Origin: a virus
IMG/VR virus record: IMGVR_UViG_3300043803_002720
Coordinates: 1-20,416 of that record
Reading direction: 5' to 3' (one strand)
DNA length: 20,416 bases
Positions 6,860 to 16,017 of this stretch are shown piece by piece. Under the pieces are notes generated by a model that was not told the origin of the DNA, made no database searches, and saw nothing but the letters and a program-made list of their open reading frames with translations. A program made the translations under genes and the position numbers. The first letter of the stretch is position 1, and every line of letters starts with the position of its first letter.

Positions 6860-7359
6860 AAGGTTCTTTAGCTGTAGACTCAGTTAAATTACACTTTTTC
6901 TCTGACTCACTCTATAGGTTAGCTGGGTGTGCGTACTCAGCTATTAGTATACTCACTGGAGAAAATCCCGAGTTGTTAAGAAAACATTATAAAGATGCAT
7001 CAGGAATGCCTCCGAATGTAATGTTAAAACATCTTAAAAAACTCAAATTTACTATAAAAAAAATAGATAAAAATTTTCTCTATAAATTAATACAAGAAGG
7101 AAAATATGTCACAGATAGCCATGTAATTTTGGCGTCTGTGAGAATGAATAAAAAAGAAGCTTCTTGGGTCGTACTGTATGGGGGAAATATGTGGCATAAC
7201 TTTGTACCGTTGAGTACATCTTACGTCACCTCCATGAGTTATCCTATGGAGCATGGATATGTCTTGTATTTGCCTGAATGGAGAACATGTGCAATTAATA
7301 CTGTGATAGATAAGCGGATATTAAGATTACAAAAACTTAAAAGACGAACACTACATTAA
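6856..7359 (+). CDS. Possible C39/papain-like cysteine protein, 167 aa
   Basis: Starts in ATGA overlap with the histone-like gene. Residues about 21-37 (Y-R-L-A-G-C-A-Y-S-A-I-S-I-L-T-G) put a single Cys at the start of a helix, and later 'DSHVILASVRMNKKEASWVVLYGGNMWHN' gives a conserved-looking His and a W-H-N on beta strands. Cys-helix then His-strand is the order in C39 and other papain-like peptidases, but the oxyanion Gln normally before the Cys is not seen (A-G-C instead). I therefore offer a fold guess, not an activity. No signal peptide. Next gene begins one base after the stop. Confidence 0.7.
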   Translation: MKGSLAVDSVKLHFFSDSLYRLAGCAYSAISILTGENPELLRKHYKDASGMPPNVMLKHLKKLKFTIKKIDKNFLYKLIQEGKYVTDSHVILASVRMNKKEASWVVLYGGNMWHNFVPLSTSYVTSMSYPMEHGYVLYLPEWRTCAINTVIDKRILRLQKLKRRTLH

Positions 7360-8231: not shown

Positions 8232-8379
8232 AAGAAAGTACACTCACGAAACACCTAATGAGTTAAAATATTTTTTACATCTCAGAGTACAAAATCTGGA
8301 CCAGTCTCACTACCCTGAAGATGCCGAAGTAGATAAGCGCGAATTTAACTTATTGAAAGTAGGAGATAGATTTGAATGA
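8218..8379 (+). CDS. 53-aa charged protein upstream of uvdE, unknown
   Basis: ATG 8218 (MKIIERKYTHETPNEL...) overlaps the membrane-protein gene by 14 bp in another frame, and its TGA (8377-8379) overlaps the uvdE start (ATGA). The sequence is rich in Glu, Asp and His (SHYPEDAEVDKREF) and ends F-N-L-L-K-V-G-D-R-F-E. No recognisable domain. The double overlap strongly suggests translational coupling into uvdE. Confidence 0.65.
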   Translation: MKIIERKYTHETPNELKYFLHLRVQNLDQSHYPEDAEVDKREFNLLKVGDRFE

Positions 8380-9296
8380 ACCCTATCACTAAAACACGAT
8401 TAGGTTATTGCTGTATCTCTCTAGGTAAGTTCGAAAGCTCTTTTAAAACTGTCACACTGACAAAAACAAGAACGTTATCTAAAACCGAAGCCCGAGAAAA
8501 GCTGTTTAAAACCTGGATAAACAACCTCCACGAGTATTGCGAAATTTTGCAATATAATATGGATGCGGGTATAAAACTCTACAGAATCAGTAGCGATCTG
8601 TTTCCATTAGCAGACCATGAAGAATTCGAATACATCTGGAATGAATTTAGTTTTGTGAAAAACTATTGGAATAGCGCCCGATATTTCACAAACGAGTTTC
8701 TGGAGAACGGTGGAAGACTTTGTGCTCATCCCGGGCAATTTGTTTCCCTGGGTAGCCCTTCAAAAAAGGTACGCAAAAATTCCATAACTAACTTAGAGTT
8801 ACATGCTGTGGTATTTGATCGTCTAGGCTTACACTTAGACAGAAATTCTCCACTCAATATCCATCTCAGCAACGGTAAAGATAATATAAAAAATCTGCCT
8901 TTCTTTGAAGAGTCGCTGAGTGAATTGAGCGACAGTGTGAAAAACAGGTTAGTGTTTGAAAACGAGGATAAATCTTTCTGGACTTGGCAGAATATTAGAA
9001 AATATTTTTCCACCTATCCAGTCACTTTAGATTTTCATCACAGAAATCTAAACAATGAAGAAGAGTCTGAGATAGAGGCATTTGATGCTTGCGTTGAATC
9101 TTGGTGGCCTGTGCGACCCATAATGCACATCTCTGATGGTCGTGAAAGTCCTATGGATCGTAGTCACCATGATTGGGTAGCCGAATTACCTCCGGTAGTT
9201 CTGAAGCCTAGCGGCGTAGATCTCGAAATTGAGGCGAAGAAGAAAGATCTTGCTGTACTTTTCTTGAAGAGTAAATATAGTAACGAAGTAATTTAA
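8376..9296 (+). CDS. uvdE: UV-damage endonuclease, UvdE/UvsE family
   Basis: 306 residues, close to the family size of about 300. The enzyme nicks DNA 5' of UV photoproducts and other lesions, beginning an alternative excision repair; it is a TIM barrel with three metal ions (family knowledge). Matching motifs in order: R-L-G-Y-C at the N-terminus, Y-R-I-S-S-D-L-F-P, C-A-H-P-G-Q-F-V-S-L, N-L-E-L-H, 'INIHLSNGKDN'-type His strand, L-V-F-E-N-E-D, T-L-D-F-H-H-R-N, M-H-I-S-D-G-R and S-H-H-D-W. All the His/Glu/Asp ligand positions expected by the family appear kept, so activity is likely. It starts in an ATGA overlap. A phage copy would repair its own genome during infection of a light-exposed host. 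Confidence 0.93.
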   Translation: MNPITKTRLGYCCISLGKFESSFKTVTLTKTRTLSKTEAREKLFKTWINNLHEYCEILQYNMDAGIKLYRISSDLFPLADHEEFEYIWNEFSFVKNYWNSARYFTNEFLENGGRLCAHPGQFVSLGSPSKKVRKNSITNLELHAVVFDRLGLHLDRNSPLNIHLSNGKDNIKNLPFFEESLSELSDSVKNRLVFENEDKSFWTWQNIRKYFSTYPVTLDFHHRNLNNEEESEIEAFDACVESWWPVRPIMHISDGRESPMDRSHHDWVAELPPVVLKPSGVDLEIEAKKKDLAVLFLKSKYSNEVI

Positions 9297-10107: not shown

Positions 10108-10343
10108 ATATAGATATAAAATCCTCAGAAATAAACAGACTCAAAATGCAGGGAGAAGATCTTGAAGTTTCTATACAACTGATAACGGGATATAAACAAA
10201 TTATCGGTGAGTTATTGAGAACAATTGACTGCTTGTTAATAGCTTTAGAAATAGAGGCAGACTACCCTGGTGAAAGAACTCGCGAAGAAATTTCTAATGC
10301 TAAGGCACTCTATCAAGAGCTTGTTGACATCGGGTATAAATGA
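10104..10343 (+). CDS. 79-aa helical protein, unknown
   Basis: MNIDIKSSEINRLKMQGEDLEVSIQLITGYKQIIGELLRTIDCLLIALEIEADYPGERTREEISNAKAL is predicted helical with heptad-like hydrophobics. Starts by ATGA overlap with the YopX gene. Its last codons contain the -35 box of the promoter for the following RNA. No recognised domain. Confidence 0.65.
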   Translation: MNIDIKSSEINRLKMQGEDLEVSIQLITGYKQIIGELLRTIDCLLIALEIEADYPGERTREEISNAKALYQELVDIGYK

Positions 10344-10351
10344 GTTATTAT
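10324..10351 (+). promoter_or_regulatory. Sigma70-like promoter for the 10358-10959 RNA
   Basis: TTGACA (10324-10329) is a perfect -35; 16 bp later TATTAT (10346-10351), or at 18 bp TTATAC, serves as -10. It lies in the end of the 79-aa gene and points at a stretch with no credible gene for about 700 bp, so the transcript start would be near 10358. Confidence 0.6.
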
Positions 10352-10357
10352 ACATTA

Positions 10358-10867
10358 GCTCTTTGACAAATTGTGCCTCCTCGGCGCAAGAGGTTTCCAG
10401 GTAATGCCTCATCCCAAAAAAACCTGTGTGGGATTGGTTTCGGCCATAAACCGAACAGGTTTAAAGTTTTCGAAGTCTAACTTCCTCTCTATTATTCCTT
10501 TCGTAGAGAGCCCGGCAGAGTCCCTTGTTCGGAGCTTGGGACGGCTAAAAAAACTCCCTTTGGGTTAATCTTGTAAGTAGGAGCCAACTGTCCATTGTGC
10601 GCAACGATGGGTGAGATTAGTCCTGAGACGTCGTGGGTAAACGTCTCGCACTTTTTCGGTGATAGCCTATGTATGCCGAAAAGAACATGTTTCTTTTTCC
10701 TGTTGGTGTGTTGGGGAAACTTGTTCAGCCAGGTGAGTGAAGCTATCAGAACTGTGACCCTGAGCTTATTGTACGACACAGGATATAGACGATGATGGGT
10801 CTGCTCATGCGGACGCTTCGTTGAGTGTGGAACAAAACCCGGGACAAAATCCACAAATACCATTTTC
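10358..10867 (+). ncRNA. Candidate large structured non-coding RNA
   Basis: No credible gene; the frames found here are short, without overlaps or leaders. Instead it is dense in perfect hairpins: 10420-10462 (8 bp outer plus 5 bp inner), 10485-10510 (7 bp), 10520-10542 (5 bp), 10592-10610 (7 bp), 10625-10647 (7 bp), 10653-10682 (7 bp), 10799-10814 (6 bp), 10827-10854 (5 bp). It has its own promoter and ends in a tmRNA-like domain. Large ornate RNAs (GOLLD, ROOL) are known in phages, often beside tRNA genes, and are of this size (family knowledge). I cannot match a primary sequence to them, so the class is open. Total with the 3' domain is about 600 nt. Confidence 0.6.
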
Positions 10868-10959
10868 GGGGGTGAAAGGAATCGAGTGTAATATCACACG
10901 GGTACCGTATGGTATACCTAGATATAAGCATTACGGCGGTTCAAATCCGCCCACCTCCA
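10868..10959 (+). ncRNA. tmRNA-like acceptor/T-arm domain without a message part
   Basis: 5' strand GGGGGTG (10868-10874) pairs fully with CACCTCC (10952-10958), discriminator A10959; no CCA encoded. Next comes AAAGGAATCGAG, similar to the conserved D-like region of tmRNA, and a T arm GGCGG-TTCAAAT-CCGCC (10935-10951). The same acceptor stem, G5-T-G with CACCTCC, is found in bacterial tmRNAs from memory. Between them is only a short arm: GTAAT (10888-10892) with ATTAC (10930-10934) and a hairpin TACC-GTAT-GGTA. There is no anticodon stem and no room for a tag-peptide ORF. Either an RNA-processing and CCA-adding signal for the upstream RNA or a degenerate tmRNA. Confidence 0.6.
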
Positions 10960-10964
10960 TGTAT

Positions 10965-11000
10965 AAATAGCTACAAGTCTGTATAAAAAAAGCTATTTTT
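10965..11000 (+). terminator. Hairpin terminator after the structured RNA
   Basis: AAATAGCT (10965-10972) pairs with AGCTATTT (10991-10998), 18-nt loop, five Ts at the 3' side. AT-rich, so moderately strong at best. Placed 6 nt after the tmRNA-like domain. Confidence 0.5.
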
Positions 11001-11068
11001 AACATTACAAAGTTGTCACGTAAGTTTTGTTTCCCTTAGGCTGAAACATGCTGGTAGAATAGAAGGCT

Positions 11069-11272
11069 ATGAAAACTAACTTCAAATCACCAGAATATCT
11101 CGCTAACACCGGGATTGTATTTGGTCCTTATGGAAGTATTGGATATTACAACACAAATCCGTTAGTGAAAAGAAACTCTATAAAACGAGCCTGTGTGCGT
11201 TTCCGCAAGGCTTGTTCTCCGGAGTTTTTGAAAAAGCTGATGGGTGGTTTCGTAATTGAAAACGCATCATAA
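11069..11272 (+). CDS. 67-aa basic protein, unknown
   Basis: MKTNFKSPEYLANTGIVFGPYGSIGYYNTNPLVKRNSIKRACVRF... is basic and Gly/Tyr-rich, with 'KRACVRFRKACSPEFLKKL' helical at the C-terminus. GAAGG is placed about 6 nt upstream of ATG, one of the better ribosome sites here. A GGTAGAAT box at about 11052 may be its promoter. Stands alone between the RNA and two tRNA genes. No recognised domain. Confidence 0.6.
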   Translation: MKTNFKSPEYLANTGIVFGPYGSIGYYNTNPLVKRNSIKRACVRFRKACSPEFLKKLMGGFVIENAS

Positions 11273-11307
11273 TTGGATTAAAATATTATAAATTATATAC
11301 ATTTTAT

Positions 11308-11380
11308 TGCGGGGTACAATTCCGGCGAATTGGGGTGTCTCATAAGCATCTTTAGGTGGGTTCGACTCCCACCCCCGCTA
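11308..11380 (+). tRNA. tRNA with CAT anticodon, initiator-like features
   Basis: Acceptor 11308-11314 with 11373-11379: six pairs plus a T1-T72 mismatch at the end. D stem CAAT/ATTG with A11-T24, anticodon stem GGTGT/GCATC (two G-T), loop CTCATAA giving CAT, T stem GTGGG/CCCAC with loop TTCGACT, discriminator A11380, no CCA. Unpaired 1-72 and A11-U24 are the hallmarks of initiator tRNA-fMet; the third hallmark, three G-C pairs in the anticodon stem, is absent. Call: initiator-like Met or an odd elongator. Confidence 0.8.
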
Positions 11381-11437
11381 TACACATACACAAATATAGT
11401 GACTGCGGTGTGAACCTTGCGCTATGATTTCGAGTAT

Positions 11438-11510
11438 GGCTGTGTAGCCCAACGGCAGAGGCAGCAGACTTAAAATCTGTTCAGTGTGGGTTCGAATCCC
11501 ACCACAGCCA
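11438..11510 (+). tRNA. Class I tRNA with TAA anticodon (Leu by anticodon)
   Basis: Acceptor 11438-11444 with 11503-11509 (7 pairs), D stem GCC/GGC, anticodon stem GCAGA/TCTGT with loop CTTAAAA giving TAA, T stem GTGGG/CCCAC with loop TTCGAATC-type, discriminator A11510, no CCA. The variable loop is only 5 nt, so class I, whereas bacterial tRNA-Leu is class II. Anticodon UAA would read UUA/UUG. It is not a stop-reading tRNA (that would need TTA). Confidence 0.85.
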
Positions 11511-11518
11511 CTTCCTTA

Positions 11519-11845: not shown

Positions 11846-12073
11846 ATGAATATTGGTCAATTAGTTGGTGCCGCCATTGGCGGTGTAGTCGCAGTCGCAG
11901 CAGGTTACGGAGTTCATCTTGGAGTAGAACATTGGTTCGGAGAGGAAGAAATTGCCCCCAGCCGAGCTCCCAAGAAAAAGCCTGCTAAAAAAGGCAAAAA
12001 AAAGCCTGTGCAAAAACCCAAAAAGAAACCTTTGAAAGCTCTTAAAGCTGAGCTGGAAAAAGTGGTGGAATAA
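11846..12073 (+). CDS. 75-aa membrane protein with basic PKKKP tail
   Basis: MNIGQLVGAAIGGVVAVAAGYGVHLGVEHWFG is a Gly-rich N-terminal helix (about residues 5-28, with G-x-x-x-G-like spacing) followed by a lysine/proline-rich tail (KKKPAKKGKKKPVQKPKKKP) and an acidic end. This would anchor a nucleic-acid-binding tail at the membrane. ATG preceded by A-rich sequence and the leader motif ACACAACACA. Function unknown; the tail resembles that of the 6701 protein. Confidence 0.65.
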   Translation: MNIGQLVGAAIGGVVAVAAGYGVHLGVEHWFGEEEIAPSRAPKKKPAKKGKKKPVQKPKKKPLKALKAELEKVVE

Positions 12074-14943: not shown

Positions 14944-16017
14944 ATGCCTGAAACAATAGACAAGATGAAACAGGCTTCCGACATGCTGCTCAAGGCAGCG
15001 GTGAAGGGAGTCTACGACCTCCAAAAACTCCGTGTTAGCATGGGGAATCGCCTGGTAGCACAATTCAAAGTTAAACTTGGTTATGTCCCTGGAACCAAGG
15101 AGGAAGACACGTTGGACGAGGAGGCAACCGAAACCCTCGACAATATCCGTTCTAGCTATAAAAAGCTTACGGATGGTATCAAGAAAGAGCTTCCTGCTAA
15201 AAAGCAGTTTAAGGCCGAGGGTATCATCCACGAATATGCTGAATTGGTGATGGTTCACCAATACATGTCGATGGAACGTCAGGAGGAGAGTCTCTTTCGC
15301 AAGATCGAGGATCTCCTGGAAGATCATCCGCTCTGGACCTCATTCCTCTCCCCAATCAGAGGATGTGGACCTGCCTTGGGTGCAGCAATCATCGCCAGCA
15401 TCGACATCACCAAAGCCGAATACCCCAGCTCGCTCTGGAAATATTGCGGCTTTGATGTAGTGCACGTTGGTCGCCAAGGAAAGAAGGGAATCGTTTCTAC
15501 CAACTTGAGAGAGGTGGAAGATTTCGATGCACTTATGGAGGACAAAACTACTGTTTCTCTCGTCAACCGCAACGACTTTAAAAAGTTGGGTGTGTTGACT
15601 ACTGGAGACATGGAATGGTCTTCTGAGGGGCGCAGAAAGAGGATGGACCACATGGTGGACCGTTGCCTCCTGAATCAGGACGGTGAGGTGGTGAAGACTT
15701 GGAAGAGCCTTCCCTACAACCCCTGGTTAAAGAGTCGTCTCTGGCTTCTCGGTAATAGCTTTCTCCGTTGCGGGAACGCGCATTACAGAGAAGTCTACGA
15801 GAACAGGAAGAATCGTTCCCTGAACCACCCCAAGTGGCAGAACGAATCCAAGAAACATATTCATGATGACGCACTCCGTTACATGATCAAGCGCTTCCTG
15901 GTAGACCTCTACAAGGCCTGGCGTCCTTTGGAAGGTCTCCCTGTTGCCCCTGAGTATTCAGAGGCAAAGCTGGGACTCAAGCACAAGAGTGCCCAGAAAT
16001 ACGCCCAAGCAGCCTAA
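14944..16017 (+). CDS. tasA: Tas-like protein (IS110/Nop-type domain), TIGR-Tas effector candidate
   Basis: 357 residues. Residues 1-130 are helical with no D-x-x-x-K/DEDD RuvC motifs as in IS110 transposases. Residues 138-170 (I-R-G-C-G-P-A-L-G-A-A-I-I-A-S-I-D ... S-S-L-W-K-Y-C-G-F) match the C-terminal Transposase_20/Nop-related region, followed by G-R-Q-G-K-K-G-I; 253-262 (W-K-S-L-P-Y-N-P-W-L) and the helix near 305-327 (H-I-H-D-D-A-L-R-Y-M) complete it. The catalytic Ser expected in IS110 is not seen, nor any HNH motif. The next 113 bp lead to an array of 36-bp units, the partner expected for Tas proteins of TIGR-Tas systems (family knowledge, recalled, not checked). GC content is visibly higher than in the neighbours, suggesting recent transfer. 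Main alternative: an IS110-like relic. The symbol tasA is provisional. Confidence 0.78.
   Translation: MPETIDKMKQASDMLLKAAVKGVYDLQKLRVSMGNRLVAQFKVKLGYVPGTKEEDTLDEEATETLDNIRSSYKKLTDGIKKELPAKKQFKAEGIIHEYAELVMVHQYMSMERQEESLFRKIEDLLEDHPLWTSFLSPIRGCGPALGAAIIASIDITKAEYPSSLWKYCGFDVVHVGRQGKKGIVSTNLREVEDFDALMEDKTTVSLVNRNDFKKLGVLTTGDMEWSSEGRRKRMDHMVDRCLLNQDGEVVKTWKSLPYNPWLKSRLWLLGNSFLRCGNAHYREVYENRKNRSLNHPKWQNESKKHIHDDALRYMIKRFLVDLYKAWRPLEGLPVAPEYSEAKLGLKHKSAQKYAQAA

Follow-up and report, generated by a model that had tools for sequence, protein, structure and literature searches.

Does the 602-nt stretch at positions 10358-10959 of this phage DNA encode one large ornate RNA, and if so, of which class? 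The window, i.e. the whole stretch of DNA analysed, is an IMG/VR virus record of 20,416 bases and represents a phage fragment, in which the 602 nt are flanked by small phage ORFs and by a tRNA-Met/tRNA-Leu pair. An earlier note had described the stretch as a single RNA of about 600 nt, possibly akin to the phage RNAs GOLLD and ROOL, with a sigma70 promoter, no credible gene, at least eight strong hairpins and an attached tRNA-like 3' domain followed by a terminator. The expectation of structured non-coding RNA in a tRNA-rich phage region was borne out by covariation in the central part and by the two nearby tRNA genes. The single RNA, on the other hand, has to be replaced by three modules, M1, M2 and M3, which are found apart in other phages (Table 1). 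Elsewhere, the window encodes a transposase-like protein (PHROG 4285, 14944-16017) and an endonuclease-like protein (PHROG 8420, 8376-9296), and a metallophosphatase-like neighbour protein has no close relative in isolates (24% identity in the best-covering match).

The promoter is recognizable as a sigma70-like sequence just upstream of the stretch. The three ORFs scanned within it (65 and 66 aa on the + strand, 123 aa on the - strand) have no match in PHROGs, the collection searched, and the lengths of the M2 homologues (198-213 nt) differ by non-multiples of three, which agrees with the absence of a credible gene. Eight or more strong hairpins do appear in the minimum free energy fold, but the fold of all 602 nt barely exceeds its shuffled counterparts in stability (z = -1.79; 1 of 20 shuffles equally stable). 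That of M1 is somewhat better (z = -2.17; 4 of 200) and that of M2 is ordinary (z = -0.71; 41 of 200). Therefore, evidence had to come from comparison: folding energy alone is insufficient, and the case for the predicted M2 structure is a comparative one. As for the terminator, the tRNA-like domain is followed by an A/T-rich hairpin and a run of T, but this candidate is weak and is absent from the output of the terminator scan.

Table 1. Features of the RNA locus and its surroundings (window coordinates)
Feature	Position	Strand	Evidence
Promoter-like TTGACA-16-TATTAT	10324..10351	+	11/12 match, where chance alone predicts about 4 sites with 9/12 or better in the scanned region; overlaps end of upstream ORF
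M1, structured 5' RNA, ~290 nt	10358..10651	+	Fold (z -2.17); ends in hairpin 10625-10647 and short T run
M1 part with weak homologue	10558..10639	+	nhmmer E 0.0044 to L280:1320-1394, record G015
M2, putative palindromic kissing-loop RNA	10651..10866	+	Family comparison, covariation
M2 helix P1	10653-10659 with 10676-10682	+	49/49 cells paired in 7 hand-aligned sequences; 6/7 pairs change both sides
M2 long-range helix PK1	10698-10703 with 10778-10783; 10710-10713 with 10774-10777	+	P2 loop to downstream strand
M2 helix P3	10730-10733 with 10759-10762; 10736-10738 with 10751-10753	+	Fold, 14-sequence alignment
M2 helix P4	10789-10792 with 10818-10821; 10800-10804 with 10809-10813	+	Hand alignment, fold
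M2 helix P5, putative kissing hairpin	10826-10831 with 10850-10855	+	Covariation on 8- and 14-sequence alignments
Palindrome CCCGGG in P5 loop, proposed homodimer contact	10838..10843	+	Loop comparison
M3, TLD-only tmRNA	10868..10959	+	RF00023 42.0 bits, E 4e-15; P2-like stem capped by short loop
A/T-rich hairpin then T run, possible terminator (weak)	10965..11001	+	Fold; absent from terminator-scan list
tRNA-Met	11307..11381	+	tRNA gene call
tRNA-Leu	11438..11511	+	tRNA gene call

The nearest relative extending into the stretch is L011, with 76% identity in the adjacent protein. It resembles window positions 10692-10892 at the DNA level (E 6.6e-10), and the best-conserved piece shared by the two is a hairpin with the loop ACAAA-N-NNNNNN-ACAAAA. 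Scanning for these loop flanks with the middle left open returned 39 stretches, five of which (L069, L090, L071, L078 and L080) were recognized by a profile of the window and L011; each of the five has a perfect palindrome in mid-loop. A version of the pattern with a G-C closing pair gave three stretches (L117, L144 and L145), all palindromic. The covariance model (CM) R1, built from eight M2 sequences, was then searched in 28 records. It scores the window, a member of its seed, at 150.2 bits and the record of L117 at 36.8 bits, and its only full-length-score member outside the seed is G026:58583-58749 (E 1.3e-21). Sixteen stretches came from a pattern that covers only the long-range helix PK1 and ignores the kissing hairpin. 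Apart from the known L080, L144 and L145 and from G026 again (L306/L316), these contain the new members L311, L313, L315, L317, L319 and L320 at 108-120 bits, five of them distinct since L319 reads like L317; the CM does not accept L312, L314, L318 or L321-L323 as M2. Altogether, the family of ~205-nt RNAs comprises 16 IMG/VR records with 15 distinct sequences under strong CM or pattern support, and its members mostly sit in or beside tRNA arrays.

Beyond this set, R1 finds weak matches among the 39 loop-flank loci, including L073, L074 and L063, and two more in G009 (E 0.009 at 6920-7004, and E 0.02); from another scan, with 55 loci, it was run on 54 and matched none of them. A relaxed loop pattern occurs at 119 loci at least, and among those listed L169 carries the palindrome UGUACA. 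Isolated phages contribute little. The M2 of L078 finds short matches in only five such records (36-38 nt of the query, E 0.09), those of L080, L145, L315 and L317 find none, and blastn of the whole stretch gives a single 27-nt match, in Stenotrophomonas phage BUCTxx99. On visual inspection this match corresponds to the 3' piece of a permuted tmRNA that carries no annotation, and it was rejected as a homologue. That phage (OR529408.1; L297, ~430-830) appears by eye to have a circularly permuted two-piece tmRNA without annotation. The Rfam search of the window stretch has no match to M2, and the open-licence PMC literature, as represented by titles and the beginnings of abstracts, does not describe it, which is weak evidence of novelty.

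The comparative evidence for the M2 structure comes from three alignments. On a MAFFT alignment of eight homologues, RNAalifold recovers P1, PK1 and P5 unhinted, with 20 of 36 pairs covarying, and the named structure has a covariation score of 0.440, as compared with 0.197 ± 0.023 for shuffled alignments and at most 0.166 when the structure is slid. With 14 sequences the score is 0.546 versus 0.227 ± 0.024 (reached by 0 of 500 shuffles; slid, at most 0.145), 95.9% of the cells pair versus 80.5% after shuffling, and both partners vary in 16 of 21 pairs. The earlier note had staked its proposal on co-variation of the stems, and in M2 the stems do co-vary. In the hand-aligned strands of seven sequences, which omit L078 as being near L069 and, being hand-picked, lean towards the structure, 270 of 273 cells pair, 28 of 39 pairs change on both sides, and none of 5000 shuffles is as good. 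The two segments of helix PK1 are paired in 100% and 98.2% of the cells of the 14 sequences, with changes on both sides in 7 of 10 pairs. P2 was read by eye and kept outside the pair counts. It would surround the 5' strand of PK1, and PK1 would therefore be a pseudoknot. Covariation thus establishes a predicted fold for M2 that consists of P1, P3, P4, P5 and the long-range PK1.

The most characteristic element of M2 is a perfect 6-nt palindrome at a fixed place in the P5 loop, which takes five forms: CCCGGG, UCCGGA, CCUAGG, UCUAGA and UGCGCA. It is present in all 15 distinct confident members, although conservation of the loop is partly a matter of ascertainment because most members were found via its flanks. 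Six members were found without reference to the palindrome or its flanks (L306/L316, L311, L313, L315, L317 and L320). When four helices are picked by hand in them, 129 of 132 cells are paired, and all six contain a palindrome, with UCCGGA, CCUAGG and UCUAGA occurring twice each. In G026 the palindrome UCCGGA is kept despite differing loop flanks. By contrast, any palindromic hexamer occurs in 2.2% of shuffled loops, and among the 63 distinct matches to a combined pattern in the loci analysed, the 9 palindromic ones are M2 members and the other 54 are all non-palindromic. The sequence of the hexamer thus differs from member to member but stays self-complementary, as is characteristic of a kissing loop that joins a homodimer; such a contact is predicted here from the aligned loops, and it is likely that two M2 molecules would pair via these loops into a homodimer. 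Pairing through palindromic loops is also used in retroviral dimer initiation.

The palindrome would not be universal in M2 if the weak matches L073:715-800 and L074:3248-3333 are true homologues; these two nearly identical sequences (29.7 bits, E 1.3e-4) keep the ACAAA flanks around a non-palindromic hexamer, GUUAGA. The weak match L063 (E 0.0038) is non-palindromic as well. Record G015 (L300/L308) has two copies with different palindromes, UCCGGA at 54396-54561 and CCUAGG at 55007-55210, the second being a 24-bit match that crosses a scaffold gap of N and is incompletely assembled.

How the three modules relate to each other can be judged from other phages. L011 has M2 but neither M1 nor M3; its M2 starts a short distance downstream of the preceding ORF, and tRNA-Met comes next. 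In G011 (L071), M2 (101398-101564) and a TLD-only tmRNA (57329-57409, 48.8 bits) are 44 kb apart. Since M1, M2 and M3 are found apart in this manner, the modules are neighbouring genes. In G015 (L144), an M1-like piece lies ~2.5 kb beyond the M2 at 54396-54561. Five of the 14 aligned members have their next gene starting 12-18 nt after M2, within ~20 nt of P5: M3 in the window (12 nt), tRNA-Asp in L071, tRNA-Ser in L145 and L315, and tRNA-Pro in L313. M3 therefore stands where other phages have a tRNA. In L011, L080, L144, L311 and L317 the tRNAs precede M2 or are farther off, and none is seen within the short loci of L320 and L117. A sigma-70-like promoter is discernible by eye just before P1 in L145, L315, L320, L069 and L078. 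M2 is thus an independent gene, which can also be carried within tRNA operons. Both M2 copies of L144 are followed by abiF-like hairpins (RF03085; 35.1 and 30.7 bits, cut-off 37; 11161-11196 and 11887-11922), and by eye an abiF-resembling hairpin comes just after the M2 of L311.

For M1, the one homologue found lies in G015, a record that also bears M2. Among five stretches in which a second was sought, only L286 matched, at the identical place to the G015 piece. M1, with this single, weak and partial homologue, may be a further structured leader.

The tRNA-like 3' domain is clearly present, with a fold that none of 200 shuffles equals in stability (z = -3.04). However, it is not a domain attached to a larger RNA but a TLD-only tmRNA, in the position of an ordinary tRNA elsewhere. 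The tmRNA model RF00023 matches at 10868-10962 from its first to its last position with the mRNA-like domain missing, at a score just under the Rfam cut-off of 47; there is no match to RF00005, and ARAGORN makes no call. M3 is 92 nt long, has neither a tag frame nor pseudoknots, and does not encode CCA. Its acceptor strands, GGGGGUG and CACCUCC, include the alanine identity pair G3.U70 and the discriminator A73 (read from 10868-10874 and 10952-10959), and it has a T stem, GGCGG/CCGCC, in addition to the capped P2-like stem. Because 92 nt and a short-loop P2-like stem leave no mRNA-like domain, we call it "TLD only" rather than a full tmRNA. Its sequence identifies M3 as a predicted tmRNA reduced to the tRNA-like domain (TLD) with G3.U70 and A73.

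Such reduced genes are found elsewhere. A scan of viral contigs for the two tmRNA ends at a spacing of 40-70 nt returned six stretches; L002, L003, L006 and L007 reach the Rfam tmRNA cut-off, and L004 looks like another by eye. In the TLD pattern scans as a whole, L005, which overlaps an antisense tRNA-Gln, and L052, which has no tmRNA match, were rejected. In nine TLD-only genes all 108 cells of the acceptor and T stems pair, and those of the other phages keep G3.U70 and compensate their T-stem changes. The identical scan of 84,980 genomes gave nine stretches, eight Poribacteria MAGs and one unrelated. The Candidatus Poribacteria MAGs (L044-L051) carry a chromosomal TLD-only tmRNA of ~86 nt (e.g. 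L049:4093-4178 and L044:1358-1443; 64-70 bits to RF00023), and six of the eight genomes have a full-length tmRNA as well. In L007 (13481-13839), a Pistol ribozyme lies ~200 nt upstream of the TLD-only tmRNA with a structured-looking stretch in between, and L002:4320-4824 is similar in sequence to this region.

Among the related records, a full-length tmRNA is present in 8/8 of at least 90 kb and in 0/4 of the smaller ones. M3 therefore has the look of a reduced form of a gene that this phage group usually keeps entire, although the window is a fragment and a full copy may lie elsewhere in this phage. Several of the related phage tmRNAs (L290-L295) encode long tag peptides of ~30 residues, e.g. 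AESFDYAPSVAEADAFLEATGFVGAELLAA (ARAGORN). All four M2 records above 100 kb that were first examined carry a tmRNA or a reduced tmRNA, which might have suggested a link between M2 and tmRNA. We rejected it: only G026 of those eight records has M2, and in seven further records, four with a full tmRNA, the M2 record G039 (112 kb) is without any.

Our findings are probably best accounted for by a small RNA island in the tRNA region of the phage, in which three RNAs follow one another, either as adjacent genes or as products of processing. The original proposal of one ornate RNA of ~600 nt of the GOLLD/ROOL type, whose tRNA-like end is an integral part, draws on the size, on the tRNA-rich setting, on the linkers of GOLLD that, in the portion of PMC12286853 available to us, sometimes contain tRNAs, and on a promoter upstream of 10358 with none seen directly before M2 in the window. 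Yet M2 occurs without M1 and M3, the TLD-only tmRNA of G011 lies far from its M2, and Rfam has no match. The covariance search that the earlier note had called for came back empty: the GOLLD (RF02032) and ROOL (RF03087) models find nothing up to E 10 in window positions 10200-11300 and nothing at E of at most 1 in any of seven records, a silence shared by 14 control genomes, so that sensitivity in that setting is unproved. One RNA is thus quite improbable. The likeness to these classes is nevertheless instructive. Like M2, GOLLD and ROOL are phage RNAs beside tRNA genes, and they form homo-oligomer contacts via self-complementary kissing loops, as the consulted part of PMC12286853 describes; M2 is phage-encoded near tRNA islands, and its covarying palindromic loop would favour self-pairing, but membership in either class is not supported. 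GOLLD and ROOL are also much longer than M2 (~570 nt for the Rfam model of ROOL; over 800 nt for many GOLLD according to PMC12286853), whereas the covarying part of M2, 198-213 nt, occurs without flanking modules. The 6-nt palindrome in five forms is unlike GOLLD/ROOL too, and M2 is known here from sequence alone. M2 is a new RNA family, similar to GOLLD and ROOL in manner and not in descent. OLE, which forms dimers, is not known as a phage RNA and has no Rfam match in the window stretch, offers another parallel. Its loop L9.3 contains a palindrome that varies among GGCC, GAUC and AGCU and stays self-complementary (PMC12286853, in the part consulted), much as the palindrome of M2 changes, although it has 4 nt rather than 6.

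The remaining alternatives concern the palindrome and M3. A 6-nt palindrome is also typical of DNA-binding or restriction sites, and the M2 dimer is a prediction; the palindrome might therefore act in DNA, or bind another RNA or a protein, instead of joining two M2 molecules. We regard this as decidedly unlikely because it occupies a constant position within the loop of a hairpin whose stem covaries as RNA, and because five forms argue against one fixed DNA or protein target. That M3 is a tmRNA pseudogene in decay, functionless and already without the mRNA-like domain, would be in line with the full-length genes of its relatives and with its score below the Rfam cut-off. On the other hand, its acceptor, T and long P2-like stems are intact and TLD-only genes elsewhere preserve G3.U70 and their T stem, so we consider decay unlikely, if not negligibly so. 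M3 could also be an attP copy of the 3' end of a host tmRNA, as in many integrative phages, and Mycobacterium and Gordonia phages match such a piece, ~32 nt, of L007, consistent with an attP in tmRNA; since M3 has both the 5' and the 3' tmRNA ends in 92 nt, this can hardly be the case. M3 belongs to the known TLD-only kind of tmRNA exemplified by Mycobacterium phage DS6A, whose tmRNA, according to the accessible portions of PMC4131195 and PMC11915505, is a TLD without tag frame; a DS6A-like molecule is described there as a strong inhibitor of tmRNA, perhaps by titrating SmpB. Compared by description only, both have little beyond the tRNA-like domain and no tag frame, but M3, unlike DS6A, comes immediately after M2, and the relatives of its phage have a full tmRNA. 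Jakobid mitochondrial and Mallomonadaceae plastid tmRNAs have likewise lost the mRNA-like domain or the tag frame (PMC11915505, as far as available); these are organellar, with mitochondrial genes that are usually permuted, whereas M3 is a one-piece phage gene.

Within the RNA island, then, two M2 molecules would likely pair via their P5 palindromes. A tRNA or TLD closely behind M2 would likely let RNase P cut, which would trim the 3' end of M2 and, in the window, would likely release M3 as a small RNA of its own. With moderate confidence, and by analogy, we propose that M3 would be charged with alanine, bind SmpB and compete with host tmRNA. The role of the M2 dimer is a matter of tentative guessing: it may be a stable structural RNA, produced along with the phage tRNAs, whose task is to bind and titrate, or else to scaffold, a host RNA-binding factor related to translation or defence, decoy or scaffold being our best guess. 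The available part of PMC12286853 describes no function for GOLLD or ROOL. A bolder and speculative view, to which we give little credence, is that M2 is the first representative of a class of self-assembling phage RNAs of small size (~200 nt), homodimers with palindromes as interchangeable identity codes; G015, with CCUAGG in its incompletely assembled second copy and UCCGGA in the other, would be a case in point. Their position among phage tRNAs would let tRNA processing release them, and during infection they would act as a scaffold or decoy that shields phage translation while the adjoining TLD-only tmRNA would disable host ribosome rescue.

M3 indicates that reduced tmRNAs also occur in phages besides DS6A, in this case within a group whose members normally have the full gene. 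Few natural homo-oligomeric RNAs are known (OLE, GOLLD and ROOL), and M2 is far shorter, with an apparent self-complementary contact in five forms. Therefore, a 205-nt transcript would allow the need for self-pairing and its role to be tested by swapping loops. M2 is thus a fresh example of a probable self-assembling phage RNA in tRNA gene clusters.
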